Assembly (NCBI RefSeq): GCF_006364435.1
Contig: NZ_CP040977.1
Location: 1-64,000 of the forward strand
DNA from: Candidatus Methylopumilus universalis
GTDB taxonomy: Bacteria; Pseudomonadota; Gammaproteobacteria; Burkholderiales; Methylophilaceae
Direction: 5' to 3'
DNA length: 64,000 bases
In this document: in pieces, positions 9,761 through 35,384 of the stretch
Layout: each line of letters begins with the position of its first letter
Numbering within the stretch: the first letter of the stretch is position 1
Program-made: the position numbers and the translations under genes
Notes under the pieces: model-generated
What the model saw: only the letters and a program-made list of their open reading frames with translations
Told to the model about the DNA's origin: nothing
Database searches by the model: none

Positions 9761-10309
9761 TTAAAGGTTTTTTGAGGGTTGCAATAAAGGCTTGGTTATG
9801 GCATCCAATTGGTCTTTGTGTACGCGACCGAGAATTGTTTTTTGGATGTTACCTTCTGAATTGATGATTACAGTATAAGGCAAAATACCCTCCTTGTTCC
9901 CTAAATTTTTACTCAAAATCACCCCTTTATCTTCATCTACAAATATAGGATAAGTTACTTTGGTCTTTTTAAGATAGGATTGCACGGCTTTTTCCTCATC
10001 AATCGCGATGCCAACCACCACAAGGTTTTTAGACTTATTTTCAGTATAGAAATTAGATAATTCAGGCATTTCTTCGCGACAAGGCTCACACCAGGTTGCC
10101 CAAAAATTGAGCACAATGGTTTTATGTTGAAATTGTTTGAGGTTTTGAGGCTTGCCATCAGGATCATTTATGACCGATGCAAATAATGGGGCAGATGAGG
10201 AGCTGATTTTTTCTGCAGGTTTTAAAAAAATGCGAGAAAAAGAAAAACCTAAAAAAATAATAGCAACCACATAGATGGTTATATGTAGTTTAGTTTTATT
10301 GATTTTCAT
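9761..10309 (-). CDS. TlpA/ResA-type membrane-anchored thioredoxin
   Basis: A 182-residue thioredoxin-fold protein with one N-terminal membrane anchor (about 8-26) that places the catalytic domain in the periplasm. The active site is WATWCEPC, with Cys74 and Cys77, followed by REEMPEL as in TlpA/ResA proteins. It is expected to reduce periplasmic disulfides, for example in apocytochrome c or copper chaperones. Its start overlaps the end of dsbD by 14 bases, which suggests that DsbD is its electron donor. The exact substrate cannot be read from sequence. Confidence 0.88.
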   Translation of the reverse strand: MKINKTKLHITIYVVAIIFLGFSFSRIFLKPAEKISSSSAPLFASVINDPDGKPQNLKQFQHKTIVLNFWATWCEPCREEMPELSNFYTENKSKNLVVVGIAIDEEKAVQSYLKKTKVTYPIFVDEDKGVILSKNLGNKEGILPYTVIINSEGNIQKTILGRVHKDQLDAITKPLLQPSKNL

Positions 10310-12089
10310 GTTGGAGCGTTTTAAGGTGATCTAGCATTTGGGATGCATTCTTGAAGCCTACAATTCTAAAAGTTCGTAATTCGTTATGCTGCTTATCAAA
10401 AAATAATATGGCTGGCGGGCCGTAAAGATTGAAATGTTTTAATAGGGCTTTATGTTGAGTAGTATTTTGAGTGACGTCAACTTGAAGCAAGCTATATTCA
10501 TTAAGATATTCTTTGACCTTTGAGTTATTGAAAGTAAGTTTTTCGTATTCTTTACAAGATACGCACCAATCCGCATAAAAATCTAGCATGATCATTTTGT
10601 TATCGCGCTGATTTAGTTCGCGAGATAAATCATCAAGACTTTGAATTTGCTTAAAGGGTAAAACAGAAACGTGATTAGGTTTCGTGGTAATAGAAATGTT
10701 CTCATCATCAGATATATTCATTTTTTGAAGTGTTAGTCCAAAAAGTAAAATCGAAGCAATAAGTGTTACAAAGGCCAGTAGATGAACCCAAGACATCGAT
10801 TTATATTTGAAGCGACGAACTGCAAAAAATAAATAAATTGAGAGTGCGAGCAATAAAGCGCTGTAAGCAATTTGATCGGTATTTTCAGGGAAAAGCGGGC
10901 TCATGATAAATAGGCCCATGGCAATTAATATAAAGCCAATCAGCTCTTTAATAATAATCATCCAATGACCACGCTTAGGCAGCCATTGATCGGAAAAAAT
11001 ACCAATGAGAAGAAGCGGTATGCTCATGCCAATAGAAAGTGTAAATAAAGCTATGCCGCCTAAGACAAAATCTCTTGATTGATTGATATAGATAATTGCT
11101 CCTGCCAGAGGAGGTGCAATGCAGGGGCTCAATACAAGCGATGAGATCATTCCGATAATAAATACATTAAGATACCTACCTCCTTCTACGCGAAGGATAG
11201 ATGTCGCAATAAAATTTTCAATGAAGTGAGGTAATTTGAGAGCATATAAATCAAACATAGAAAGTGCTAAAAGAATAAAAACAACACCGAGAACAATCAT
11301 GAGCAAAGGACTTTGAATACTTGACGTAATTAAATTGCCTGACAATCCCGCAAAAATACCTATCAAGGTATAAGTAAAAGAAACGCCACCCACATAACTG
11401 AAAGATAGAAAAAAATCTTTTAAGCGCGTTTGATGAGAGGGACGCTTATGTGAAGCAAAAATAATACTTGATAAAATAGGAATCATGGGAAGAACACAAG
11501 GCGTTAAAGAAAGCAAAAGCCCCGCAATAAAAAACCCTAACAAGATAAGACCAATATGTTGTGACTGCAATAAAAATTGCATCGTATCAACTTCAGAATT
11601 AGAGCTGGTCGCGTTTAAGGTTTTAGTTTGAATGCTATCGAACTTAAATTCTTTTGAAATAGGAGCGTAACAAAGACCTTTTTGGCTGCATCCTTGATAA
11701 GTGAGGCTTATTTTTTTTGGTGGATGAGTTGGATCGAATGGAATAGAAGCATTTAAGGTGCTATGGTAAATTTCTGTTTTTCCGAAATGAGGGTCTGTTT
11801 TAATTTCTGCAGTTGGCAAAAGGATTTGATTTTGAGGAACATGATCAAATTCAACTTTTAATTTGTTGCGATAAAGATAATAGTCTTTCGCAATAAAGAA
11901 TGCTGCCTCGATGGATTGAGAATTTTTTTTGATTGTTAATTGAAAAGCTTCGTCAGGCTGTAGGAAAGCATTTTTATCTTTTAAGAATAAAGATTCGTCA
12001 GCATTTGCGATGTTGATGAGTAAGCCGATAAAAAATAAACTAAACAAAATTGTTATTTTTTTTGATAAAGAAAAAATACGGCTAAACAT
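10296..12089 (-). CDS. dsbD: Thiol:disulfide interchange protein DsbD
   Basis: This moves electrons from cytoplasmic thioredoxin across the inner membrane to periplasmic thiol proteins. The 597-residue protein has a signal peptide (about 1-30), an N-terminal immunoglobulin-like domain whose cysteines lie in GCSQKGLCYAP, a central eight-helix domain with the paired cysteine motifs TPCVLPM and LSPCIAPPL, and a C-terminal thioredoxin domain with WCVSC near residue 509. All three redox pairs are present. The downstream TlpA-like gene overlaps its end and is probably its client. Confidence 0.95.
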   Translation of the reverse strand: MFSRIFSLSKKITILFSLFFIGLLINIANADESLFLKDKNAFLQPDEAFQLTIKKNSQSIEAAFFIAKDYYLYRNKLKVEFDHVPQNQILLPTAEIKTDPHFGKTEIYHSTLNASIPFDPTHPPKKISLTYQGCSQKGLCYAPISKEFKFDSIQTKTLNATSSNSEVDTMQFLLQSQHIGLILLGFFIAGLLLSLTPCVLPMIPILSSIIFASHKRPSHQTRLKDFFLSFSYVGGVSFTYTLIGIFAGLSGNLITSSIQSPLLMIVLGVVFILLALSMFDLYALKLPHFIENFIATSILRVEGGRYLNVFIIGMISSLVLSPCIAPPLAGAIIYINQSRDFVLGGIALFTLSIGMSIPLLLIGIFSDQWLPKRGHWMIIIKELIGFILIAMGLFIMSPLFPENTDQIAYSALLLALSIYLFFAVRRFKYKSMSWVHLLAFVTLIASILLFGLTLQKMNISDDENISITTKPNHVSVLPFKQIQSLDDLSRELNQRDNKMIMLDFYADWCVSCKEYEKLTFNNSKVKEYLNEYSLLQVDVTQNTTQHKALLKHFNLYGPPAILFFDKQHNELRTFRIVGFKNASQMLDHLKTLQHENQ

Positions 12090-22222: not shown

Positions 22223-23358
22223 TATTTTTTGAAGCTAGGCATGTTAGTCACAGGCATGCCAGGACGTACTTTGATAAGATTGTCGATAATGACTTTATCG
22301 CCCGCTTGAAGACCGTTTAGAATAACCCAATCTCTACCTTTCCATTGGCCAGTAACAACAGGACGGGGTGTCGCTTGACTTTTTTCATTGACCACAAATA
22401 CAAACTTACCTTGATCAGAATTAAGAACCGCTAACTGAGGCAGTAAAAATACACCATCTTTTTTGCCTATATTTACACGGACGCGCACAAATTGACCAGG
22501 TAAAATTTGACGCTCGTTATTTTCAAATGTTGCTCGGAGCTCTTGAGTGCCAAGCGATGGATTAATTTCGCTTGCGGCAAAGTTTATTTTGCCTTTTTTC
22601 GGGTATTCATTTCCATCAGAAAGGATCATTGAAACTTCCTGAATATTTTTTTCATTTAATGCACCACCCAATTGTTTAAGTTCATTATCCGAAAAACTAA
22701 AACGTACCCAAATTGGATTTACTTGCGCTAATGTCGTAAGCAGACTTGTATTCGCAGAAATGAGGGCGCCTTCAGAAAATTGAAAGCGACCAGAAATACC
22801 ATCGACAGGCGCGGTGACATTAGTATAAGAAAGATTGAGTTCCGCCTGTCTTAAATTTGCTCGGCTTTGAGCGAGAGCAGCGATACTAATCGATTCGTCT
22901 GATGTTGCATTATCAAATTCACGCTGACTAATCGACCGAGATTCAATCAAACCCTCTAAACGTTTTTTCTCTCTCTTAGCTTGTTCGGCTCGTTCAAGGC
23001 TCTGATTATATTGAGCACGCGCTTGATTTAAGGCTATTTTATATGGCTCGGGATCAATATTGAATAAAGTTTGACCCGCTTTAACCGCAGAGCCTTCATT
23101 GTATTTACGTTTTAATAAAATACCGCCAACACGAGGTCTAATTTCAACTTCTTTAGCGCCCTCTGTTTGGCCCACAGCTTCGGCTGAAATAGGGACGCTC
23201 GAAGGTGCCATTTCTAGCATCGTTACAGGCAATACAAAATTAGGTGGCATACCACTTTGCTCAGGGGGCTTCTGGCAGCCAACCAAGATAAGCAGTATAA
23301 GAAGGGGAGGTAAAATAGATCTTAATGGCGCGAGATGGCTTAACAACTGAAACCCCAA
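22222..23358 (-). CDS. RND efflux periplasmic adaptor lipoprotein
   Basis: This is the membrane fusion protein of the tripartite pump. The 378-residue protein has a lipoprotein signal with LVGC lipobox (Cys28), a biotinyl-lipoyl-like domain (VEIRPRVGGIL with partner LSYTNVTAPVDGISGR), an alpha-helical hairpin rich in Gln, Glu and Arg between them, and a beta-barrel domain ending in QFVRVRV. It is the first gene of the operon. The start used places a charged, Leu-rich leader before the lipobox; a later start is possible. Confidence 0.93.
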   Translation of the reverse strand: MGFQLLSHLAPLRSILPPLLILLILVGCQKPPEQSGMPPNFVLPVTMLEMAPSSVPISAEAVGQTEGAKEVEIRPRVGGILLKRKYNEGSAVKAGQTLFNIDPEPYKIALNQARAQYNQSLERAEQAKREKKRLEGLIESRSISQREFDNATSDESISIAALAQSRANLRQAELNLSYTNVTAPVDGISGRFQFSEGALISANTSLLTTLAQVNPIWVRFSFSDNELKQLGGALNEKNIQEVSMILSDGNEYPKKGKINFAASEINPSLGTQELRATFENNERQILPGQFVRVRVNIGKKDGVFLLPQLAVLNSDQGKFVFVVNEKSQATPRPVVTGQWKGRDWVILNGLQAGDKVIIDNLIKVRPGMPVTNMPSFKK

Positions 23359-23468
23359 CTTTAAAAATATGGATAAAGGAAATGTATCTTAAATCTGACT
23401 ATATTTTACTCTGAAACGTGGGCGCAGGGGATTAAGCCAAAGTTTTTTTAAAGCTTTAAATATTAAAT

Positions 23469-23780
23469 CTAGTTCTTAAATTTTGTAGATAAATAAATGA
23501 GGTAAGAGCCAATGATGATATCAAGTAAAATCCATACTATTATTGGAAAGTGAAATGGAAGGAAAGGATTGTCTATAATTAACACGCTAATTAAAAAAGC
23601 GATATGGGGTGTATTAAGCTTTACCCATTTGTTAAGCAGAATAAATCCGACGCCAATAAAAACTATAACTCTAAAATAATCATAAAAACTTTCAGGCAAT
23701 GGAAAGGCTGCAACAAAATAGAGTAAGGCAATAGCCCTTTCCATAAATATTATTTTTTTTACATTACTTAACATAATCAA
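23469..23780 (-). CDS. Small four-helix membrane protein
   Basis: The 103-residue product is almost wholly hydrophobic, with four likely membrane segments (about 14-27, 34-46, 58-69 and 78-97) and a conserved-looking NPFLPFHFPI loop. It may belong to the small DUF6804-like membrane family, but this is not certain. Its start overlaps the end of the STAS gene by 17 bases, implying coupled translation; a second ATG (Met13) at 23742-23744 would avoid the overlap. Because it is translationally tied to a signalling protein, a role in the same system is possible. Confidence 0.6.
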   Translation of the reverse strand: MIMLSNVKKIIFMERAIALLYFVAAFPLPESFYDYFRVIVFIGVGFILLNKWVKLNTPHIAFLISVLIIDNPFLPFHFPIIVWILLDIIIGSYLIYLSTKFKN

Positions 23781-24102
23781 TAGCAGCTTCTAATGTATCA
23801 AAACTTGGGATAATTTTATCTAACCCAGAAATAGTAATAACCATATTCACATCAGACTGAGTTCCAAATAATGCAAACTTACCTTTGCGGGCGTTAATTG
23901 CTTTAACGTTAGATATTAAGAGCCTTATACCGATTGAAGATATATAAGGTACCTTTGACATATCCGCGATAATGGACTCTCTTGGAGATGCTGTCATACC
24001 AGAAAATTTCGTTTCTATTTGCCCAACACCTTCAATATCAAGTCGTCCCGATAATGTTATTTTTGTAATCGAGCCATTGATTTGTTCTTCACTAATTTCC
24101 AT
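23764..24102 (-). CDS. STAS-domain anti-sigma factor antagonist
   Basis: This 112-residue single-domain STAS protein resembles RsbV/SpoIIAA. It begins with a beta strand and ITLSGRLDIEGV, then has IIADMSKVPYISSIGIRLLI, in which Ser55/Ser56 occupy the position of the serine phosphorylated by partner-switching kinases. In such systems the unphosphorylated form binds the kinase. The cognate kinase candidate is the divergent HATPase gene 235 bases away, and the phosphatase candidate is the REC-PP2C gene at 29.7 kb. No sigma factor gene is adjacent, so the output is unknown. Confidence 0.9.
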   Translation of the reverse strand: MEISEEQINGSITKITLSGRLDIEGVGQIETKFSGMTASPRESIIADMSKVPYISSIGIRLLISNVKAINARKGKFALFGTQSDVNMVITISGLDKIIPSFDTLEAAIDYVK

Positions 24103-24173
24103 ATAATCACCTTTTAAGTTGTAAAGTTTTGTTATGTATTAATTTTAAAAGTCATAATTTTCAATGCATTAAA

Positions 24174-24190
24174 TTAGGCTAATAGCCTAA
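24174..24190. repeat. Perfect palindromic hairpin in the STAS/HATPase divergent spacer
   Basis: TTAGGCT (24174-24180) and AGCCTAA (24184-24190) are separated by AAT. The element is 72 bases upstream of the STAS start on the minus strand and about 150 bases before the HATPase start, so it may be an operator serving one or both promoters. The spacer (24103-24336) is otherwise A+T-rich, with a TATAAT at 24305-24310 as possible -10 for the plus-strand gene. Confidence 0.4.
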
Positions 24191-24336
24191 TAAATCAAAG
24201 ATAGCTTAAACAAGAAAATAACACAATTTATCTGTAAATTCGATGTTATATTTGCATCATTAACTAAAGAATAATAAGAAAAATAAGCTTTATTGTCATA
24301 AATTTATAATACTTTCTAAATTAGTATGAGCTTAAT

Positions 24337-24750
24337 ATGAAAGCACTAAAGATTAATTTAACTAAGAATATTTCCGACCTCACTATGTTAGTTACTAAGC
24401 TCGAGAAATTTTTTGAAGAAAATAATATTTCTAGTATTTCAATGCCAATGACTTTAATTTTAGAAGAGCTTTATACAAATACTATTACACACGGAGCTTC
24501 CGATGGGCGTGATATTTTCATAGAAGTCAATTTAGGTATTGATAAAAATGAATTAGTTATGACTTATAAAGATAATGGAATACCATTTAATGTGCTTGAG
24601 CTTCCAGGCCCAGATTTGACTGCATCAATAGAAAACAGAGAGGTTGGGGGTCTTGGCGTTCATTATGTAAAAACTCTTACGGATTCTGTTGAATATGAGT
24701 ACTTAGAAAAGCAAAATGTATTAAAAATGAAGAAAAAATTAAGTAACTAG
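24337..24750 (+). CDS. RsbW-like HATPase (anti-sigma factor / serine kinase type)
   Basis: This 137-residue single-domain GHKL ATPase resembles RsbW/SpoIIAB and other stand-alone serine kinases. The N-box is EELYTN (43-48), the G1 box is KDNGIPFN (78-85), and G2 is GGLGVHYVK (104-112), all intact, so ATP binding is expected. It is likely to phosphorylate the neighbouring STAS protein and hold or release a third partner. Its last 12 bases overlap the convergent end of the Na/Pi transporter gene. The same fold reappears, degenerate, at the C-terminus of the ABC ATPase at 32.4-33.5 kb. Confidence 0.88.
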   Translation: MKALKINLTKNISDLTMLVTKLEKFFEENNISSISMPMTLILEELYTNTITHGASDGRDIFIEVNLGIDKNELVMTYKDNGIPFNVLELPGPDLTASIENREVGGLGVHYVKTLTDSVEYEYLEKQNVLKMKKKLSN

Positions 24751-26316
24751 TCTTGTGGCATGAATTCTTCGAATAAGCCAAATAATTCTCTCAAAAATAC
24801 TCGTAGAAACAAAGAGCATCTGTCTTTCTTCTAAGTTTATTGATTGATCGTTTAGTAAAGAGTCTCTAATTTTTTCCATAAGATCACTGCGGTCTGAAGT
24901 TAAACTGACTAATAATTCATCATCATTATCCTTCGTAATCAGAGAGTCATTAAGTAAAGTTAAGATGAGATGAAGGCTTTCTACCATTGAGCTCGCAAGC
25001 CCTTTTTGAAAATTATGTGTGGCCTCAATATTTTGTTCAAAACTATAGAGCCCATTAACAAGAGAAATCATATCCTCGTTTCTGCTTTGAATTGAAAATA
25101 AGCTCTCAGTATTATTATCATTCTTATTTAAAGAGGTAGTCTCTGAGATAAATAATTTTGTTTTATTTAATAAGTCTAAAGTTAACTCATGCCTTGTATT
25201 TAATTGAATAGTAACAACTCTCTCATGCTCAACTCTAACTGGCTCAAGATAATCGACTAGGCTCTCAATAAGTCTATTTTGTTCTTTCGAGACCAATATT
25301 AAAGCTGTTTCAGTATTGTCAGAAGATTCAGGATAAATAAAATGTAGCTTAAATAAATTCTCTTCCTCGGATTCGGGGCTAAGGTAATTAAGTAACAAAA
25401 TAATCTTATTTTGAAATAAAGCTACAACAAGTCCGCCGGATAATTGTAAAGCTAGGTAGACGAGAGACAACATGAAAGATGCGTTGATTGTTAAATGGAT
25501 AGTATTAAAAAATCCAAAGAGTTTCGAGGGCTCTAACCAGGTCAGTGGATATAGGACTAAGCTACCTAAAAGTTTTGAAAGAAAGCAATAAATAGCGATT
25601 TGTTTTTTTTTGCCCTCCAGGTGAGAAGCAAAAAATAAGACACTTAACCCAGAACCAATATTAGCGCCGAAAACTAAAATCATAGCTTCATTAAAATGTA
25701 TGATGCCTGCCATATTTAATGCAACTGCAAGAATGGCAACACTTGAAGATGATTGCACTATCAATGCAGAAAAAATTCCAATCAGTAAACCTATCAAGCT
25801 TGACTCAGCGGAAAATATAAAAAACTCTCTGGCCCAGGTCGATGTGTTTAAAACATGTCCTGTTTCTTTAATGAGCCCTAGCCCAAATAAAAGTAAGCCA
25901 AACGCAAGAAATACAGCTGCAATTTGTTTAGCTTTAATATCTTTAGTGAGATTAAGTAGATGCATCAATCCAACTATCCCAAGCGAAAAGAAACTAGCAG
26001 TTTTTATATCGATAGATACTAAAAAGACTAGCAATGCTGTTCCTGACCCTGACCAGGCAACCATTGCTAAAGCTCGATTGATAGTTAAAGCTCCAGAATT
26101 CAAAAGCCCTAAACATAAAAAAGTTGCTGCGCTAGTGCTCTGAGTGATGACACCTAAAAAAGATCCAGTCAAAGCACTTGAGAATGGCCCGCGAGTAAAA
26201 TTGATTAATATCGAACGCAACTTACCAGAAAAAATAGGTTGCATACTGGCAGAAAGGTAATGTAACCCAGTAAAAAAAAATCCAAGTCCAGCCAAGAATG
26301 AAATAATTTGCATCAT
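24739..26316 (-). CDS. Na/Pi-cotransporter family protein with PhoU-like tail
   Basis: The 525-residue protein has the two inverted repeats of the PF02690 Na/phosphate symporter family, each with the Gln-Ser-rich motif (QSTSAAT and VQSSSSVAILAVALN), spread over about nine to ten membrane segments in residues 1-300. The C-terminal 200 residues are soluble, helical and PhoU-like. Bacterial homologues take part in phosphate export or uptake. The preceding gene on the same strand, a membrane sensor-like protein, ends 8 bases before its start, suggesting a two-gene operon. The 3' end overlaps the HATPase gene. Confidence 0.88.
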   Translation of the reverse strand: MMQIISFLAGLGFFFTGLHYLSASMQPIFSGKLRSILINFTRGPFSSALTGSFLGVITQSTSAATFLCLGLLNSGALTINRALAMVAWSGSGTALLVFLVSIDIKTASFFSLGIVGLMHLLNLTKDIKAKQIAAVFLAFGLLLFGLGLIKETGHVLNTSTWAREFFIFSAESSLIGLLIGIFSALIVQSSSSVAILAVALNMAGIIHFNEAMILVFGANIGSGLSVLFFASHLEGKKKQIAIYCFLSKLLGSLVLYPLTWLEPSKLFGFFNTIHLTINASFMLSLVYLALQLSGGLVVALFQNKIILLLNYLSPESEEENLFKLHFIYPESSDNTETALILVSKEQNRLIESLVDYLEPVRVEHERVVTIQLNTRHELTLDLLNKTKLFISETTSLNKNDNNTESLFSIQSRNEDMISLVNGLYSFEQNIEATHNFQKGLASSMVESLHLILTLLNDSLITKDNDDELLVSLTSDRSDLMEKIRDSLLNDQSINLEERQMLFVSTSIFERIIWLIRRIHATRLVT

Positions 26317-26324
26317 ACTAAACG

Positions 26325-27011
26325 TTATTCAGAAGAAACTCTAAGGGCTTTAAATAAGTTGATAAATGATAAAAATAAAGCAAATAAGATAACTAAGATT
26401 AGAAATTGTCTTAATTGATGATAGCGAATTTCGAAATCATTTTTGACTTTTAATTGCAATGCGAAATATGTCTCATTAATTTCTTGATTGATAATAAATA
26501 ATTTATTTTCAATATTTTTAGTGAGACCCATAGTTTTTTTATCTAATAAAATTCCTTCTGTTAATGAAAGAGAGCTATATTCACTCAAGAGATCTCTATA
26601 TTGATTGATTATAATTAAGGAGTCTATTTTTAGATTAGTGATGTTCTTTAGAGCCAAGATCGCGGTTTTATCGTTTTCTATGTTTTCTAAATTTTCTTGA
26701 AATGCTGAAACTTTTTTCTCAAACAAACTCTTATATTTAATTTTTGTTTCTTTGTCACGGGCACGAGTAATAATATTTTTCCATTCCTGATCTGCAGATT
26801 TTAAATTAAGCTGTGCAAGTGATAGTTGCTCAGAAATATTTTTTAGTGCCTCTACTTTTAATAAATTTTGATTGTATTCTCGTTCCATCTTCCATATAGC
26901 AAAAAGTGAAGCGATGCCCATCACGGCTATTAAAAATACAATTGTGATGGTAGATGAAATTAGTTTTTGTCTAAATAGCGATTTATTATTTAATTGACCC
27001 AATTCAAGCAC
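26325..27011 (-). CDS. Membrane helical-bundle sensor-like protein without output domain
   Basis: The 228-residue product has one membrane helix near the N-terminus (about 19-38), a long helical region (40-200) and a second membrane helix (about 203-220), ending a few residues later. The topology and the segment SADQEWKNIITRARDKE, with a downstream LFEKKVSAFQENL, resemble the periplasmic four-helix-bundle sensor of chemoreceptors and histidine kinases. No HAMP, kinase or methyl-accepting domain follows. It is divergent from the cytoplasmic hybrid kinase gene and could act as its detached sensory part, or as a partner of the transporter downstream. Confidence 0.6.
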   Translation of the reverse strand: MLELGQLNNKSLFRQKLISSTITIVFLIAVMGIASLFAIWKMEREYNQNLLKVEALKNISEQLSLAQLNLKSADQEWKNIITRARDKETKIKYKSLFEKKVSAFQENLENIENDKTAILALKNITNLKIDSLIIINQYRDLLSEYSSLSLTEGILLDKKTMGLTKNIENKLFIINQEINETYFALQLKVKNDFEIRYHQLRQFLILVILFALFLSFINLFKALRVSSE

Positions 27012-27079
27012 CTTAATTGTATGTTTAGTTTATCGATTAAAAAACCAAGCCCTTAGAGACTTATAGTAATATTAAATTA

Positions 27080-27103
27080 ATGTGACAATATTGATTGTTA
27101 CAT
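27080..27103. promoter_or_regulatory. Near-perfect palindrome in a divergent promoter region (candidate operator)
   Basis: ATGTGACAAT (27080-27089) and ATTGTTACAT (27094-27103) form 10-base arms with one mismatch around a 4-base centre. It lies 28 bases before the hybrid kinase ATG and 69 bases before the divergent sensor gene. The spacing does not fit the CRP or FNR consensus. It is a good candidate binding site for a dimeric regulator controlling both transcripts. Confidence 0.45.
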
Positions 27104-27130
27104 TTATATGACATAAATTTAGAGAAAATT

Positions 27131-29749
27131 ATGGCGAGTATCGAACAAGCACAAAAACTTATCTTAGAGCTTTTAAAGGATTTTGAAGAAGACACTTTAG
27201 AAATTTTAAGACATAGCCCCGTCGCCGTGAGGATCATGAGGGTATCTGATCGCCATATCACTTTTGCCAACCCTCGATATATGGAAATGTTTAAAGTCAA
27301 AGAAAAGGATCTTCAAACTTTAACACCTCTTCAGGTATATCAACATAAAGATGATTTTGAGGCGCTCAGTATCCGTATAAACGCCCAAGAAAATATTGTA
27401 GATGAGGTGTTAGCAATGAAAACCCTGACTGGGGATTTATTGCAAGTTATGGGGTCATTTCATCATATGAAATATCTTGATCAAGAGGTTGTTGTTGCAT
27501 GGTTTTACGATGTGACAGCGGCCCATCAGGCAAAACAACTTGCCGAAGATGCGGCAAAAATGAAAAGTGAATTTTTAGCCAACATGAGCCATGAAATTAG
27601 AACTCCTATGAACGGAGTTATAGGAATGGCTCATTTAGCCCTAAAGACAGACTTAAATCCAAGGCAACGAGATTATGTGCTTAAGATTCAGCAGGCAGGC
27701 AAACATCTTTTAGGCATTATTAATGATATTTTAGATTTTTCTAAGATTGAAGCAGGCAAGTTAACTATAGAAGAAGTAAGTTTTGATATTGATGAAATGA
27801 TGTCAAATATATCGAGCATGATTAGCCAAAAATGCTCAGAAAAAAATTTAGAACTTATTTTTAAATTGCCTGGTGATCTTCCTCACAAACTCATTGGCGA
27901 CCCTTTAAGGCTTTCCCAAATTCTTATTAACTATGGAAATAATGCAATTAAATTCACAGAAAAAGGTGAAGTAATAATTTCGGCAGACATTCTTGAACAA
28001 GATGACGAAACTATTTTTCTAAAATTTAATGTTTCTGATACAGGCATTGGATTAACGCCAGAACAAAAAGGGAAATTATTTCAGTCATTTCAGCAAGCTG
28101 ATACTTCGACCTCGCGTAAATTTGGTGGCACCGGTTTAGGGCTTGCCATATCAAAACAGTTAGCCAATCTGATGGGGGGTGACGTAGGTGTTGATAGTGA
28201 ATTTGGCAGAGGTAGTACATTTTGGTTTACGGCTAAATTTAAACTCGATAAAACCATAACAAAGAGAGTTTTATTTAAAGAGGATTTAAGTAGTAAATCT
28301 GTTTTAGTGATTGACGATAATGAGTCTGCAAGATTAATCATTGAAGATATGTTAATTGCAATGTCACTTAAGGTGGTTGCATCAGAATCAGCAGAAAAAG
28401 GCTTGCAAGCAATTATTGACGCGGATAAACAAGGGTCACCTTTTGATATGATTTTTGTTGACTGGCATATGCCAGCAGGAATGAACGGTATCGAATTTGT
28501 GAAAGCATTAAAAAAATTGATTATTAGCAAAAAACCACCGTGTGTTCTTGTAACGGGTTATGCAAAAGATGACGTAATAAATGATGCAACAATTGAAGGC
28601 ATAGAGCATGTGATCGCCAAACCAATTAATGCTTCTTTACTATTTGAAACTATCTTAAGTATTTTCAATTTAGAAGCCCCAGAACATAACGCACAAAAAA
28701 CTCATAGCAACCATACAAAAATAGATCTCAATAGCCTTAAGGGCGCAAGAATACTCCTTGCAGAAGATAATTTACTCAATCAACAGATTGCAACTGAGAT
28801 ATTAGAAGATGAAGGATTTGTTGTAGAAATAGCAAACAATGGGCAAGAGGCTGTCAATATGGCAAATAAATCTCAATACGATATTGTGTTAATGGATATG
28901 CAAATGCCTATTATGGACGGACTTGAAGCAACGAAAACAATCCGCCAAAAATTTTCTAATAATGCTTTACCTATTTTAGCAATGACAGCTAACGCATCTG
29001 ATGCAGACAGATATAAGTGTTTAGAAGCGGGGATGAATGCTCATATTACAAAGCCTATTGATCCAAATTTATTGTTTGCTGGACTAGCTAAATGGATTAA
29101 GGGAAAAAATTCAAATCTAATAAATGATGAAAAGACCGTAATCAGCGCAAAAGAAGAAATACAGGTTCCAGAAATTAATGGGGTAGATTCTCGTTTAGGA
29201 CTTCAGGTTGCGGCAGGGAAAGTTTCTCTCTATATAAAAATGTTAAAAACATTTTCTGCTGATCAAATAAATGCAGTGAGTGATATTAAAAGGGCTCTAG
29301 ATATAAGTGATTATTTAACAGCTCAAAGAGTAGCTCATACTCTCAAAGGAACATGTGGCAGCATAGGCGCAACTGAAATACAAAAAATAGCAGGTGAAGT
29401 TGAAGGTCAATGTCTGGACAAAATACCACTTGAGAAAATTATTAAAAATCTTGACCTAATTCAGCCTAAATTAATAAGCATTATTGATAGCATTAAAAAA
29501 ACTTTGCCCGAGGATAAAAAATTAACTTCAATAACAATCTTTGACGATAGCCAAATTAAACTATTAATTAATAAATTATCAGAATTATTAGCAAACGACG
29601 ATACTGAGGCAAATGATTTGCTTGAAAAGTCACAAGACGTTTTTATCCAATATTTTGGCAAAGAAATGTTTAGTAAAATTTCTGATGCATTACGAAATTT
29701 TGATTTCGAATCAGCATTAAATTTAGCAAATGAAAAGTTAGTTAAATAA
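27131..29749 (+). CDS. Cytoplasmic hybrid sensor histidine kinase (PAS-HisKA-HATPase-REC-REC-Hpt)
   Basis: From this ATG the protein has 872 residues. The order is a PAS-like domain (about 25-135), HisKA with phospho-acceptor motif [12 protein letters not shown], HATPase with N-box [11 protein letters not shown] and G-boxes DTGIGL and [10 protein letters not shown], a receiver (VLVIDDNES, phospho-Asp in FVDWHMP), a second receiver ([21 protein letters not shown]), and a C-terminal Hpt with [10 protein letters not shown]. No membrane segment is present, so the sensor is cytoplasmic. A TTG at 27095 would add 12 residues, but GAGAAAATT before the ATG favours 27131. It overlaps the REC-PP2C gene (TAATG). 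Confidence 0.93.
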
Positions 29750-30906
29750 TGATTACAAAATCAACTATATTGGTGGTAGATGATACACCGGCTAATCTTC
29801 AATTAATGAGTGGGCTCCTCCAGGATGACTACAAAGTAAAAGCAGCAACAAGCGGCGAAAAAGCTTTAAAAATTGCTTTTACAGATCCGCAGCCAGATCT
29901 TATTTTATTGGATATCATGATGCCAGAAATGGATGGTTATGAAGTTTGTAAGCGGCTTAAGGCAGATGAAAAAACTAATCAAATACCTATTATATTTCTA
30001 ACCGCTAAGGCGGAAACACAGGATGAAGCATTAGGTCTTTCATTAGGGGCTGTCGATTACATTACAAAACCTGTAAGCCCTCCAATTGCTATAGCTAGAA
30101 TAAAAACGCATATTGAACTTTATCGCCAAAAAAGAGAATTAATTGAAAGTCAGCGATTACTTGCAGAAGAAATTAATGAGGCAGCTATCTATATTAGGAG
30201 TTTATTGCCATTACCATTAGAAGGAAAAGTGAAAACTTCTTGGCAACATATCCCGTGTTCATCTCTTGGAGGTGATGCTCTTGGATATCACTGGATTGAT
30301 GAAGAGCACTTAGGTATATACTTAGTGGATGTTTGTGGTCATGGCGTAGGAGCCGCAATCTTATGCATATCCGCTATCAATGCGATTCGTTCACAATCTC
30401 TCACAGATACAAATTTTAAGAGCCCAGCTTCTGTTTTAAAGGGCTTAAATGAAGCCTTTCCCATGGAAGATCAGAATAATAAATATTTTACTATCTGGTA
30501 TGGCGTCTATCATAAGAAAAATCATGAATTAATTTTTTCAAGTGCTGGTCATCCTCATGCAATTTTATTTACGGGAAGTGATTTAAATAATAAAACACTT
30601 AAAACTTTAACTTCTGGAGGATTGGCAATTGGTATGATGGGAGATATCATTTTTAATGAAACTATTGTGCCATTAAATAATTTCAATAAGCTTTATGTGT
30701 TTAGTGATGGAGTTTACGAAATTACACAAAAAGATGGCAAAGAAATGAACTTAGATGACTATACCCAGCTTATGAAAGAGTATTTTAGTGATTTGGAATT
30801 GCTTGAATCAGAAAAAGTTTTAGAAAAAATTAAAAGCTTAAAAAATGAAATCGGACCATTTGATGATGATTTCTCCCTTGTTGAATTAATTATTAACGCT
30901 ACTTAA
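29749..30906 (+). CDS. Response regulator with PP2C/SpoIIE phosphatase output (RsbU-like)
   Basis: The 385-residue protein joins a receiver (1-125, VDDTPANLQ with phospho-Asp in LLDIMMPEMDG and the LTAKAE switch motif) to a PP2C-type serine phosphatase (about 150-385) with the metal-binding GGDALGY and DVCGHGVGAA motifs and a late DGVYE. Such proteins dephosphorylate STAS antagonists. The upstream hybrid kinase, overlapping by one base, is the obvious phosphodonor through its Hpt domain, and the STAS protein at 23.8-24.1 kb is the probable substrate. This makes it the bridge between phosphorelay and partner switching. Confidence 0.92.
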   Translation: MITKSTILVVDDTPANLQLMSGLLQDDYKVKAATSGEKALKIAFTDPQPDLILLDIMMPEMDGYEVCKRLKADEKTNQIPIIFLTAKAETQDEALGLSLGAVDYITKPVSPPIAIARIKTHIELYRQKRELIESQRLLAEEINEAAIYIRSLLPLPLEGKVKTSWQHIPCSSLGGDALGYHWIDEEHLGIYLVDVCGHGVGAAILCISAINAIRSQSLTDTNFKSPASVLKGLNEAFPMEDQNNKYFTIWYGVYHKKNHELIFSSAGHPHAILFTGSDLNNKTLKTLTSGGLAIGMMGDIIFNETIVPLNNFNKLYVFSDGVYEITQKDGKEMNLDDYTQLMKEYFSDLELLESEKVLEKIKSLKNEIGPFDDDFSLVELIINAT

Positions 30907-30909
30907 AAT

Positions 30910-32427
30910 ATGATAAAAATATTTTTACTTATTTTTTATCTCCTTCTTTCTTTACAAGCTAACGCGAATGAAGAAATGCAGCCTATTGCTAATCTCGAAG
31001 ATCTTAAAAATAAAAAAATTGGAGTCATGCTGGGATCAACGCATGATGCATTTGCTCACAAACAATATCCTGAAGCTGATATTCTGCAGTACAAAAGTCC
31101 TGCTGATGTTCTGCTAGGAGTGAAATCAGGAAAAGTTGATGTGGGTATATACAATAGTGTTTCACTCACAGAAATATTAAAACTAAATCCTGACTTAGGT
31201 GTAATAGATAAGCCTTTTGAATTTAGCCCTGTAGGTTTTGGTTTTAATAAAAAAAATGTCGAGTTACATGCGCAATTTAATACTTTCTTTCAAACTATAA
31301 AAGATAGCGGTGTCTATGCAGACATGATTGAAAGGTGGACTAAAAAAGGCATTACTGATATGCCTAAAATAGATACTCCAAATAAAAATGGTTTATTGGT
31401 GGCAGGCCATATAAGTGACGGTGGACTCCCATTTGTTACCTTACGCAATAATGAAAATATTGGTTTGAACATTGAGCTTGCCAAAAGATTTGCTGCATAC
31501 CTAGGTAAAGATATTCGATTTGACGATATGGAGTTTGGCGGGCTTATTCCTTCTCTCAATACAGGTAAAATTGATTTTATTGCTGTTACTTTGATGTTTA
31601 CAGAGGAGCGAAAACAAAAAATTAATTTTGGAGAACCTTATTATGAAATTGGAATGAGTGCTTTTGCGCTCAAAAAAAATATAGCTGCCTTTAAGCAGGA
31701 AAAAAAGAATGATTCAAACGCGCCAACATTTCTAGAGGGGCTAGCAAATAACTTTCAAAGTAATTTAATTCAAGAAAAGCGTTATTTACTTCTTTGGGAT
31801 GGATTAAAAACCACAATCATTATTTCAATTTTAGCAACAATTTTTGGTACTTTTTTGGGAGGTATAGTTTGCTTCTTAAGGATGTCAAAAAATAAATTCC
31901 TCAATATTCCTGCGAAGATATATATCAGTATTTTAAGAGGCACCCCAGTTCTTGTAATATTGATGATTATCTTTTATGTGGTGTTTGCATCAGTAAATAT
32001 TAATCCTATTATTGTTGCAACCATTGCATTTGGAATGAATTGTGGTGCTTATGCTGCTGAAATCTTTAGAAGTGGTATTGAAGGAATAGAAAAAGGCCAA
32101 ACGGAAGCAGGCATTGCTATGGGGTTTAATAAAATAAAAACCTTCATTTATATTATCCTTCCCCAAACCATTAGAAGAATTCTTCCAATTTATAAAGGTG
32201 AAATTATCACATTAGTCAAAATGACTTCAATTGTTGGTTATATTGCGGTCCAAGACTTAACTAAAGCGAGTGATATTATAAGAAGTCGAACATTTGATGC
32301 ATTTTTCCCATTAATTTTGATTGCAATTTTGTATTTCCTAATCTCATTAATTCTCATCCAATCTTTAGATTATCTTGAAAAAATTACAGATCCAAAATAT
32401 AAACGTAAAGTTAAAACGAAATCATGA
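30910..32427 (+). CDS. Polar amino acid ABC transporter: substrate-binding domain fused to permease
   Basis: The 505-residue protein has a signal peptide (1-19), a binding region (about 27-256) and a HisM/GlnP-type permease (about 297-490) with the EAA loop motif [12 protein letters not shown]. In the binding region, the lobe-2-like half comes first (27-148: [20 protein letters not shown], ending in ERWTKKG) and the lobe-1-like half second (160-256: [45 protein letters not shown]). Ordinary family members have the opposite order, so this looks circularly permuted. It starts three bases after the phosphatase gene and overlaps the ATPase gene (ATGA). Confidence 0.88.
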
Positions 32428-33512
32428 TTAAAGTTGAAAATCTTTCTAAAAAATACGGCGATCTAGTTGTATTAAAAAATATTTCTACAGAAATAAAAAA
32501 AGGCGAGGTTGTCTCAATTATTGGACCATCTGGCACCGGCAAAAGTACCTTTCTTAGGTGTCTTAACCTTCTTGATGAACCGAGTGGAGGAAGTATTTTT
32601 ATTGATGGCGAAAATATTCTAGATAAAAAGGTTGATGTATCCAAAATACGTCAAAAAATGAATATGGTATTTCAGTCATTTAACTTATTTTCTCATCTGT
32701 CTGTTATAGAAAATCTTACTTTAGGACCCATTAAGCTTAAGGGGATATCTAAAGAAGCAGCAGAAAATAAATCAATGGATCTATTAAGACTCGTTGGACT
32801 CGCTGAAAAAGCAGAAAGCTATCCAGACGAGCTTTCCGGGGGACAAAAGCAGCGTGTTGCCATTGCTCGATGTCTTGCAATGGAGCCAGAAATTATTTTA
32901 TTTGATGAGCCAACTTCAGCCCTTGATCCAACAATGGTAAGCGAAGTGCTATCAGTAATTCGTCGTTTAGCTAAAGAGGGTATGACAATGGCTATTGTCA
33001 CACATGAGATGGCATTCGCGAGGGATGTTTCTAATCGAGTTTTTTATATGGATCAGGGCCTAATATACGAAGAAGGTTCACCAAAGCAAATTTTCGATGC
33101 GCCAAAAAAAGAAAGAACCAAAGTATTTATTAATCGTATTAGAAACCTTGTATCTAAAATAAAAACACAAGATTTTGATTTTTATGCGCTTAACGGAGAA
33201 ATCGAAGGTTTTTGTGAAAAGCAATTAATTTCAAAATTAATGCGAACTAATTTACTTCGAGTAGTTGAAGAACTGCTTATTCTATACAAACCTTACTTAA
33301 GCAAAATTGAATTAGAACTGGAAATTGCTCATTCTGAGAAAACCAATCAACTTTCATTAATTTGCCAAACCAAAGGTAAGAAATTTAATCCATTAGACAA
33401 TAAAGATTTAGAAGATGATATTGGAATAAAAATTATTCGCAAATTTACTGAGGTTGTTGAGTTTAAATGGGCAGACAATCAAAATAGACTAGAGCTATTA
33501 TTTATAAACTAA
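32424..33512 (+). CDS. Polar amino acid ABC transporter ATPase with C-terminal HATPase-like domain
   Basis: Residues 1-240 are a standard HisP/GlnQ-type ATPase: Walker A GPSGTGKS (34-41), Q-loop, signature LSGGQ (137-141), Walker B ILFDEP (158-163) and H-loop His194. Family members normally end near residue 245, but this one has 362 residues. The extra 245-362 segment aligns by eye with the RsbW-like protein at 24.3 kb: VVEELLILY against [20 protein letters not shown] against MTYKDNGIPFN, and [17 protein letters not shown] against GGLGVHYVKTLTDSVEY. The N-box Asn, G1 Asp and glycines are lost, suggesting a non-catalytic binding domain. Confidence 0.9.
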
Positions 33513-33549
33513 AGCAATAGATCGATTATTGATTAATAGAAAGTAAATC

Positions 33550-34338
33550 ATGAGCAAGCATTTTAAGTTGTTAATTTTTTTTATGTTTGCATTATTTTTA
33601 TCCTTGATAGTAGCAGGGTGCAGCGATAAAGAAAAAGTTGTTATTACCAATATTAAGCAATTAAATGATAAAGAATTTGGAATTCCCACAGGCACAGTCG
33701 CTGATAAGCTTGTGCTGTCAGTATTTCCAAATACAAAATTTCAATATTATAATTCGGTCCTTGATGCAGCTATTGCTGTAAAACAAGGAAAAGTTGATGC
33801 TGCAGCCTATGATGAACCAATATTAAGAAATATAGCAGCAAAAAATCCTGGTTTAATTGTACTTTCCGAAATGATCACCAAGGATGATTACGGATTTGCA
33901 GTTCGTTTAGAAGATAGCGATTTAAAAAATACGATTGATGGAGTTATTAAAGATCTAAAAATAAATGGTGATTATGAGCAGATGCTTAAGCGCTGGTTGC
34001 CAAAAGAAGGGCAGCCCAAAGCAATGCCCCAAATAGAAACAGGCAATAATGGTACATTGAGGTTTGGCACTTCATCAGTTACCGAACCTTTTTCATTTGT
34101 TGATGAATCTCAGAAAGTGGTAGGCATTGATATAGAAATTGCATCACTGGTAGCTAAAAAACTTAATAAAAAATTAGAAATAGTTAATATGGAATTTGGC
34201 TCATTGATTCCAGCATTAGCCTCAAAGAAAGTAGATATGATTGGCGCATGCATTACTATTACTGAAGAACGATCTAAAAAAGTGTTATTTTCCAGCCCAT
34301 ATTACACGGGTGGAATTGCTGCAATTGTAAATAAATAA
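33550..34338 (+). CDS. Polar amino acid-binding lipoprotein with lobe order reversed
   Basis: The 262-residue protein has a lipoprotein signal with lipobox VAGC (Cys24). The mature part reads as a lobe-2-like half first (35-152: IKQLNDKEFGIPTGT, GKVDAAAYDEP, DYGFAVR, MLKRWL), a short linker, then a lobe-1-like half (168-262: LRFGTSSVTEPFSFVD, VGIDIEIASLVAKKL, FGSLIPALASKKVDM, TEERSKKVLFSSPYYTGG). Standard SBP_bac_3 proteins have these halves in the opposite order. It closely parallels the domain fused to the permease upstream. It is the last gene of the five-gene operon starting with the hybrid kinase, 37 bases after the ATPase. Confidence 0.87.
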   Translation: MSKHFKLLIFFMFALFLSLIVAGCSDKEKVVITNIKQLNDKEFGIPTGTVADKLVLSVFPNTKFQYYNSVLDAAIAVKQGKVDAAAYDEPILRNIAAKNPGLIVLSEMITKDDYGFAVRLEDSDLKNTIDGVIKDLKINGDYEQMLKRWLPKEGQPKAMPQIETGNNGTLRFGTSSVTEPFSFVDESQKVVGIDIEIASLVAKKLNKKLEIVNMEFGSLIPALASKKVDMIGACITITEERSKKVLFSSPYYTGGIAAIVNK

Positions 34339-34346
34339 TTATTTAT

Positions 34347-35051
34347 TTAAGATAATAGATGAGCTAAGCCAAAAGCCGCCGAAGAAGCAATGCCACCAAT
34401 CAAAAGGGTTTGCATCGCTGAGCGCCCTTGATTCACCCCTGTAAACCTACCTTTAATCCAACCAAAAAGTACCAGTGCAATACTCGTTGCAATAACTGAC
34501 ATTTTTAGTGCGGACATGATGTCAGATATAAAGAAATAAGGCATCAAGGGAATGAGCCCACCTACAATATAAGAGGTTGCAATAGTGGACGCACTGATCA
34601 TGGCTCTTTTTGGGTCAGGCTTTTCTAAATTTAATTCAAATTTCATCATGAATTTTAGCCAGCGTTCACGATTAGAAGTGATGGACTTAACGACTGTTTT
34701 AAGCGCGCTCCCTTTGAGCCCATATTCTGAAAGTATTTCTTCAACTTCTGAAATTTCACGCTCACGTAAATGTTTAATTTCATAGGCTTCACGTTTTAAT
34801 TCAGAATCATAATGTTCAATATCAGTTTTACCAGCAAGATATCCGCCTAAACCCATTGCAATAGACCCCGCCGCAACTTCGGCTAAGCCTGCTGTTACAA
34901 TAATTGTTGAAGAATCAACAGCTGCAGATAAGCCTGCAGCAAGAGCAAATGGAACAGTAAGGCCATCCGCCATACCAATCACAATATCTCGAACTACTGC
35001 TGTTGAGGTGAAGTGTGTTTCAGAGTGATGCGAATGATGGTCGTTTGACAT
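34347..35051 (-). CDS. VIT1/CCC1-family iron/manganese transporter
   Basis: The 234-residue membrane protein matches the VIT1/CCC1 family: an N-terminal His-rich stretch (HHSHHSETH), the first-helix motif DIVIGMADGLTVPFALAAGL, AAGSIAMGLGGYLAGKTD, then a soluble helical insertion rich in Glu and Lys (about 75-130) and three more membrane helices. Family members move ferrous iron or manganese, usually out of the cytosol. It is transcribed convergently with the ABC transporter operon, only 8 bases from its end, with no clear terminator between. It is probably single-gene. Confidence 0.9.
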   Translation of the reverse strand: MSNDHHSHHSETHFTSTAVVRDIVIGMADGLTVPFALAAGLSAAVDSSTIIVTAGLAEVAAGSIAMGLGGYLAGKTDIEHYDSELKREAYEIKHLREREISEVEEILSEYGLKGSALKTVVKSITSNRERWLKFMMKFELNLEKPDPKRAMISASTIATSYIVGGLIPLMPYFFISDIMSALKMSVIATSIALVLFGWIKGRFTGVNQGRSAMQTLLIGGIASSAAFGLAHLLS

Positions 35052-35135
35052 GAATATCTCTTTAAATTTTATGTTAATGACAGTTAAAAATACTATATAT
35101 TAGATTTTGTAATTTAAATATATAAGGATTAAAAA

Positions 35136-35384
35136 ATGAAACAATGTACCTACAATGTATTAGCTTTATTAGTGTTTGCTTTGTCTTTTTCTTATGTCCC
35201 CACAGCCGCGTTTCAATATCATTGCGTCTATGATGGCGTGACAACTTTTAATGTGCCTATTTTTATATTCCAACAAGTTTTTTTAGCCACAATTCTTTTC
35301 ATCATTGGTCGTTTTGGTTTTAGAGATGGCAAAATGGTCTGCTGGATGTCGTGTAGCCAAAAAAATAAGAAAAAGAAAAAATAG
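35136..35384 (+). CDS. Small two-helix membrane protein with poly-Lys end (82 aa)
   Basis: No family is recognised. The 82-residue product has an N-terminal hydrophobic segment (about 7-27, possibly a signal anchor), a second one (about 42-59), and four cysteines (Cys4, Cys30, Cys69, Cys73), ending in a run of lysines. A purine-rich TAAGGATTAAAAA precedes the ATG, which supports translation. It is divergent from the VIT transporter, 84 bases away, and its stop codon directly abuts the stop of the convergent 46-residue gene. Confidence 0.6.
   Translation: MKQCTYNVLALLVFALSFSYVPTAAFQYHCVYDGVTTFNVPIFIFQQVFLATILFIIGRFGFRDGKMVCWMSCSQKNKKKKK

Follow-up and report, generated by a model that had tools for sequence, protein, structure and literature searches.

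Results

The window, a stretch of 64,000 nucleotides at the start of contig NZ_CP040977.1 of Candidatus Methylopumilus universalis, contains an accessory island (positions 23370 to 34345, delimited by genome comparison) that holds all the transporter, lipoprotein and signaling genes described here. The island is about 11 kb long and has a G+C content of 0.329, against 0.379 and 0.384 in its flanks. It encodes a STAS-domain protein of the anti-sigma-factor-antagonist type (23764 to 24102, minus strand), a free RsbW-like kinase with a HATPase_c_2 domain (24337 to 24750, plus strand), a Na+/Pi-cotransporter family protein (24739 to 26316, minus strand) and a protein of 228 aa that matches nothing in Pfam or NCBIfam (26325 to 27011, minus strand), a recurrent neighbor in Methylophilaceae that also adjoins a Na/Pi-cotransporter-family gene and RsbW in loci L032, L046, L065 and L068. 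On the plus strand follow a hybrid histidine kinase (27095 to 29749), in which Pfam recognizes HisKA, HATPase, two receiver and Hpt domains and a PAS domain below the cut-off, a response regulator fused to a SpoIIE-type phosphatase (29749 to 30906, by Pfam), a permease (30910 to 32427), an ABC ATPase (32424 to 33512) and a free lipoprotein of 262 aa (33550 to 34338). Kinase and regulator genes overlap by 1 base, 3 bases separate the regulator from the permease, permease and ATPase overlap by 4, and a gap of 37 lies between the ATPase and the lipoprotein. The 27 promoter-like and 3 terminator-like sites found in 26900 to 34450 do not exceed those in shuffled sequence and are silent on a separate promoter for the lipoprotein, and Rfam returned nothing for 23000 to 35200 at gathering scores.

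The lipoprotein starts with a signal peptide (33550 to 33621, plus strand) whose lipobox, VAG-C24 as read from the sequence, ends at Cys24 and is followed by Ser at position +2. Pfam SBP_bac_3 (PF00497) matches the whole protein with 114 bits (cut-off 26.4), placing it in family 3 of the solute-binding proteins, and at E 0.01 the only Pfam families found on it were SBP_bac_3 and Lig_chan-Glu_bd. Profile positions 1 to 92 fall on residues 170 to 262, at the C-terminal end, and 33778 to 34002 scored alone matches profile positions 54 to 131 with just 19.5 bits, so that Pfam by itself shows lobe 1 cleanly and lobe 2 weakly. The order of the lobes is borne out by a phmmer comparison with PDB sequences, in which residues 165 to 262 correspond to positions 7 to 104 of the 6svf chain and residues 38 to 150 to positions 116 to 227. 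Separate lobe models gave the same result: the copies from the window and the genus read lobe 2, a gap of 17 or 18 aa and lobe 1, and the canonical controls, ORFs of relatives, read lobe 1 then lobe 2, -4 to +5 aa apart, in 20 of 20 cases (29 ORFs had both lobes; the 9 permuted ones, several of them duplicates, are the window and genus copies and were excluded as controls). The initial annotation had read the lobes in reversed order in both the lipoprotein and the domain fused to the permease and had held that a collinear match to ordinary SBP_bac_3 proteins would speak against it; we looked for such a match and found the stretches swapped instead, without the lobe 1-before-lobe 2 arrangement of PF00497. 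It had also ended lobe 1 at SSPYYTGG, and here only the order holds, as lobe 1 continues to the last residue.

On the plus strand, the lipoprotein thus comprises lobe 2 together with the C-terminal part of an ordinary binding protein (aa 32 to 150, 33643 to 33999), a linker from the old C-terminus to the old N-terminus (aa 151 to 167, 34000 to 34050) and lobe 1, the first part of an ordinary binding protein (aa 168 to 262, 34051 to 34335), and the C-terminal helical part has moved together with lobe 2. A profile built from 48 permuted domains matched 298 PDB sequences at E 1e-10. Four of the five matches examined in full are single proteins with two swapped stretches that nearly abut (in 4zv1, profile 139 to 236 corresponds to chain 6 to 104 and profile 3 to 124 to chain 106 to 231); the fifth is the GlnP tandem. 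That the swapped stretches nearly abut places the cut in the first hinge strand, and the linker of about 17 aa unites the old ends. The lipoprotein is a circularly permuted family-3 solute-binding protein of the polar-amino-acid type.

AlphaFold2, run with 48 aligned sequences, predicted a confident single domain (pLDDT 94.0, pTM 0.87), and this model, together with the binding proteins among its PDB structural matches, points to a bilobed type II fold. Foldseek returned full-length matches at a TM of about 0.4 to 0.5, values expected when a sequential aligner meets a permuted chain and that say nothing for or against the fold. The top full-length VIA match among the matches listed was OpuAC 2b4m (Z 11.3, rmsd 4.1, 199 aligned, 10% identity), with matches within 1 Z, half-domain matches included, counted as tied.

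Simulations of GlnP SBD2, in the accessible part of PMC7679957, have Arg333 holding the ligand carboxylate and Gly326 and Ser328 its amino group, and the D417F variant is described in the accessible part of PMC8025302 as not binding ligand. By alignment, Arg333, Gly326, Ser328 and Asp417 correspond to R241, C234, T236 and D88 of the lipoprotein, numbers that were mapped by hand from the SGMSITDAR motif. The lipoprotein therefore has the Arg and Asp that would be predicted to hold an amino acid, with Asp88 at 33811 to 33813 and Arg241, the counterpart of the residue that forms the salt bridge with the alpha-carboxylate, at 34270 to 34272 (both plus strand). Arg241 is kept in 48 of 48 permuted domains. 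These domains fall into five classes, A (20 rows, including the window lipoprotein), B (6), C (10, including the window's fused domain), D (7) and E (5), and the residue at the Asp88 position is Asp in 20/20, 0/6, 2/10, 6/7 and 2/5 of them, respectively. At the T236 position, class A has Thr or Ser in all 20 rows and class C has Met in 9 of 10; the window's fused domain carries Asn and Met at the two places. As judged from these alignments, the lipoprotein keeps the predicted amino-acid pocket, and the fused domain has lost part of the pocket residues.

The permease consists of this N-terminal class C permuted domain and a BPD_transp_1 domain, and it matches TIGR01726, the HEQRo-type permease domain, with 78.8 bits (cut-off 42.2). 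In the 1.30-Mb genome, family matches above the cut-off occur only in the lipoprotein and the fused permease, and one weaker match lies at 1116798 (23.4 bits, cut-off 26.4). The two binding domains align collinearly with each other (33% identity over 236 columns, E 4e-34), which agrees with the initial annotation. The best match of the ATPase is the GlnQ model, with 308 bits, under the equivalog cut-off of 379, and its Walker A, signature and Walker B motifs are intact by reading.

The permuted order was present in all 51 domain matches from the window and 21 named loci, every one collinear with the permuted model; 48 cover more than 200 of 230 positions, and the remaining 3, which run into contig ends, were left out of the 48-row alignment. 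A scan of named prokaryote contigs placed the domains in Chlorobiota, Ignavibacteriota, Bacteroidota, one Desulfobacteraceae MAG and Methylophilaceae, with contig labels reading Chlorobiaceae, Ignavibacteria, Bacteroidetes, Desulfobacteraceae, Methylophilaceae, Chitinophagaceae and Burkholderiaceae. The whole of L030, from a Chitinophagaceae-labeled MAG, shares 94 to 97% protein identity with the window operon, and the lipoprotein of L046, from a Burkholderiaceae MAG, is 77% identical to that of the window; both are probably mis-binned Methylophilaceae contigs rather than signs of recent transfer. In eight genomes reached through the loci, 22 of 25 permuted-profile matches at E 1e-20 were full-length, and the remaining three, all in the genome of L036, covered lobe 1 only, as ordinary proteins would give. 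The phylum of the L039 genome had matches at E 1e-30 in 20 of 198 genomes (59 matches, each over at least 227 of 238 positions); in that of the L036 genome, the starting genome was the only one of 198 with a permuted-profile match. Such a spread, along with a 93%-identical copy in G006, another complete genome of this genus, confirms the earlier view that the permutation is no sequence error and is stably inherited.

The same annotation had also proposed a duplicated family. Classes A and C each extend over several phyla, and many loci carry both, which makes the window's pair old paralogues that traveled together. A recent duplication inside the operon was considered and rejected, as the copies belong to different old clades. 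A quick tree was built from 48 permuted domains and 20 canonical ones, with canonical order restored beforehand; a single branch (SH-aLRT 92, below the starred level) separates all the permuted domains from the canonical ones, which is consistent with a single origin of the permutation without proving it. The GlnP tandem chain 6h30 is collinear with permuted profile positions 2 to 232 across lobe 2 of SBD1, the linker and lobe 1 of SBD2, and this suggests that the permutation may have come from a GlnP-like tandem that lost its outer lobes.

Permeases of the family carry zero (L038, L041, L042 and L050), one, two or three fused permuted domains. Three in a row are found in L034, L039, L044, L047 and L049; in L039, canonical profiles match across unit borders and the lobe pairing is ambiguous. 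Twelve of the 21 named loci have class A immediately before the permease, and the four permeases without a fused domain each stand beside a class A protein. The Chlorobi genomes of L042 and L050 have one permuted domain each, of class A, and that of L041 has three; in L047 and L049, class A is the first domain fused to the permease. The ATPase gene of L049 is split over two overlapping frames (9985 to 10990), a frameshift or a sequencing error in the MAG.

The window ATPase carries an extra C-terminal domain (CTD; aa 237 to 362, 33132 to 33509, plus strand). Its profile found nothing among PDB sequences up to E 5, so a fold search was needed: the predicted structure (pLDDT 92.4) ranked SpoIIAB, RsbW and UsfX first in Foldseek, with 1tid at E 3.4e-5 and TMq 0.73, which assigns it to their fold. 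HATPase_c_2 matches 10 of 16 members (best 4e-5) without reaching E 0.1 on the window's own domain alone, and hhalign of the CTD against the island's own RsbW gave E 8e-6 and a probability of 84. Read in the alignment to that RsbW, the N-box Asn, the DxG Asp and the glycine-rich lid are absent from all 16 rows, and invariant residues are present among the 16 copies. On the strength of the model and these comparisons, we describe the CTD as a predicted non-catalytic RsbW/SpoIIAB-like domain. It occurs across phyla, in all 15 loci whose ATPase could be read. Among 187 genomes of the window's family, it was found below E 1e-49 in 7 and as weaker matches in 5 more, 4 of these in frames of 149 to 160 aa; among 398 genomes from the window's phylum, the only match at E 1e-8 was the window's own.

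STAS, RsbW or SpoIIE neighbors occur in 6 of the 21 named loci (L030, L032, L033, L037, L043 and L046): STAS and RsbW directly follow the ATPase in L043, and STAS and SpoIIE directly precede the lipoprotein in L033 and L037. In the remaining 15, some of which are truncated, no such gene turned up in single-sequence queries or in a Pfam scan that covered some of the neighbors. In L067 (1452 to 4721), a hybrid kinase with an SBP_bac_3 sensor domain directly follows the ATPase, and the sensor matches the whole profile in one stretch, the ordinary order.

The island is absent from the same-species genome G128 and from G010, G004, G012, G011 and G005, and G006 carries it over the part read, from window position 24443 on (G014 and the partial contigs of G001, G007 and G013 were set aside, and the flanking gene had no match in G002 and G003). 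G009 lacks 23648 to 33515, with the permease, ATPase and signaling genes, yet its lipoprotein is intact and 92% identical; in its assembly, 93% complete, neither a second permuted domain nor an ATPase CTD was found. G008 has only a scar with the 3′ end of the lipoprotein gene, so that the two genomes show different partial deletions, sparing all or part of this gene. Pairwise omega for the lipoprotein was 0.15 to 0.21 among copies with the transporter and 0.18 to 0.26 for pairs involving G009, ranges close enough that constraint on the G009 copy is not clearly relaxed (pairs with L032, with a saturated dS of 2.4 to 2.7 or none computable, were set aside).

Discussion

We consider it probable that the lipoprotein is a permuted amino-acid-binding protein that feeds the permease-ATPase as its second binding protein, with a coupling to signaling as the weaker part of the proposal. 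The lipoprotein would work as an ordinary Venus-flytrap that binds a free amino acid between its lobes, with Arg241 for the alpha-carboxylate and Asp88 as the counterpart of GlnP Asp417, and would pass it to the permease-ATPase encoded just upstream, beside the fused class C domain with its altered pocket. Judged by gene arrangement, delivery to the adjacent transporter is the most likely role, since most loci place class A upstream of the permease, no other permuted domain was found in the genomes that contain L042 and L050, and the L047 and L049 permeases have it as a fused domain. The permutation would have arisen once, from a GlnP-like tandem minus its outer lobes, and it would bring the hinge close to the lipid anchor and, where the domain is fused, to the connection with the membrane domain. 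In E. coli, Ser at position +2 of the lipobox favors the outer membrane; by that rule the lipoprotein would sit away from the permease, which counts against delivery.

The link between the island and signaling that can be read from the sequences is the CTD of the ATPase, not the lipoprotein. We propose a coupling because this predicted non-catalytic domain could dock the island's STAS protein; the RsbW-like kinase and the SpoIIE phosphatase, the latter under the hybrid kinase, would determine how far that protein is phosphorylated. Control of the ABC ATPase MlaF by the STAS protein MlaB offers a parallel. Taken further, the whole system might be a transporter-receptor, with permuted binding domains (free, or fused in up to three copies) and a pseudo-RsbW ATPase, in which partner switching either reads occupancy or gates the importer; we regard this extension as tentative and would sooner bet against it.

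The initial annotation had left open whether one copy acts as a signaling receptor or as a second substrate entry. The second is better supported, by class A proteins that stand beside permeases lacking a binding domain, are the only permuted domain in two genomes or are fused to the permease in two loci. A lipoprotein that serves mainly as a ligand receptor for signaling, independent of transport, with uptake left to the fused class C domain, keeps some room and seems unlikely to us. Its retention in G009 without the transporter, under constraint that is not clearly relaxed, would allow a transporter-independent role and counts against simple delivery, although this orphan gene could reflect a recent deletion or an assembly fault. 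The island is also rich in signaling genes, and in L065 and L066, from other Methylophilaceae, the lipoprotein gene has STAS/RsbW genes nearby and is separated from the ATPase gene by 3 to 6 kb. However, Pfam finds in the window kinase only a weak PAS besides kinase, receiver and Hpt domains, and the Chlorobi loci, where class A accompanies a permease with no domain of its own, are hard to square with a receptor, as are the two fusions.

Delivery could also be the whole story, with the CTD a mere structural remnant and the signaling genes chance neighbors in a mobile island. Islands do gather unrelated genes, most named loci have no STAS, RsbW or SpoIIE gene within reach, and the loss of the N-box Asn and DxG Asp from every CTD would fit a remnant; but a remnant would hardly be expected in all readable ATPases across phyla with invariant residues, nor STAS and partner genes directly next to the ATPase (L043) or the lipoprotein (L033 and L037), and we find this account doubtful, somewhat less so than a pure receptor. 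Very improbable, in our judgment, is that there is no true permutation and that two halves left over from a tandem make up the lipoprotein, which would then be either non-functional or swapping lobes with neighboring domains. The register is indeed ambiguous in multi-domain permeases such as that of L039, where canonical profiles cross units. Against this stand free single-unit lipoproteins conserved across phyla with omega well below 1, intact pocket residues and a confident monomer model.

The closest known system, GlnPQ of Lactococcus lactis, shares the binding-protein, permease and ATPase families, has binding domains fused to the membrane domain, and has pocket Arg and Asp residues that align with those of the lipoprotein, whereas the GlnP domains run from lobe 1 to lobe 2. 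The NCBI model of GlnQ (240 positions) covers only residues 1 to 239 of the 362-aa window ATPase, indicating that GlnQ has no such C-terminal domain. Ordinary SBP_bac_3 proteins (GlnH, HisJ and ArgBP of Thermotoga) are homologous in sequence over both lobes; in the lipoprotein, by contrast, the lobes are swapped, the termini lie in hinge strand 1 and a linker bridges the old termini. The CTD has the fold of the SpoIIAB and RsbW anti-sigma kinases, but is fused to an ABC ATPase and lacks their N-box Asn, DxG Asp and glycine-rich lid.

Circular permutation has precedents among binding proteins. The accessible part of PMC4990184 describes TpMglB-2 (Tp0684) of Treponema pallidum as a "Type Ic" permuted, membrane-tethered, bilobed lipoprotein that still binds ligand, and that of PMC2395249 describes circular-permutation relations among glycine betaine-binding proteins such as OpuAC (2B4L); no permutation wording was found in the OpuA paper PMC2861598. 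The window lipoprotein resembles TpMglB-2 in being membrane-tethered, circularly permuted and bilobed, but TpMglB-2 belongs to the Type I sugar-binding proteins, a sequence family that does not include the lipoprotein, and it keeps the strand order of its C-lobe, whereas the lipoprotein has moved a whole lobe and is cut in the hinge. OpuAC likewise has a permuted topology, with a different ligand, and the sequence homology of the lipoprotein is to family 3. In the open-access literature, which mostly excludes subscription papers, we found no report of a permuted family-3 binding protein or of an RsbW-like domain on an ABC ATPase.

The family would represent a circular permutation that occurs in nature and is inherited widely, within a much-studied group of amino-acid-binding proteins whose ordinary relatives allow direct comparison. 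As free, fused and multi-copy forms exist within one family, it is a test bed for why tethered binding proteins permute, a link between tethering and permutation that the accessible part of PMC4990184 raises as a possibility for TpMglB-2. If the ATPase domain does dock a STAS protein, nutrient import in these bacteria would be tied to partner switching.
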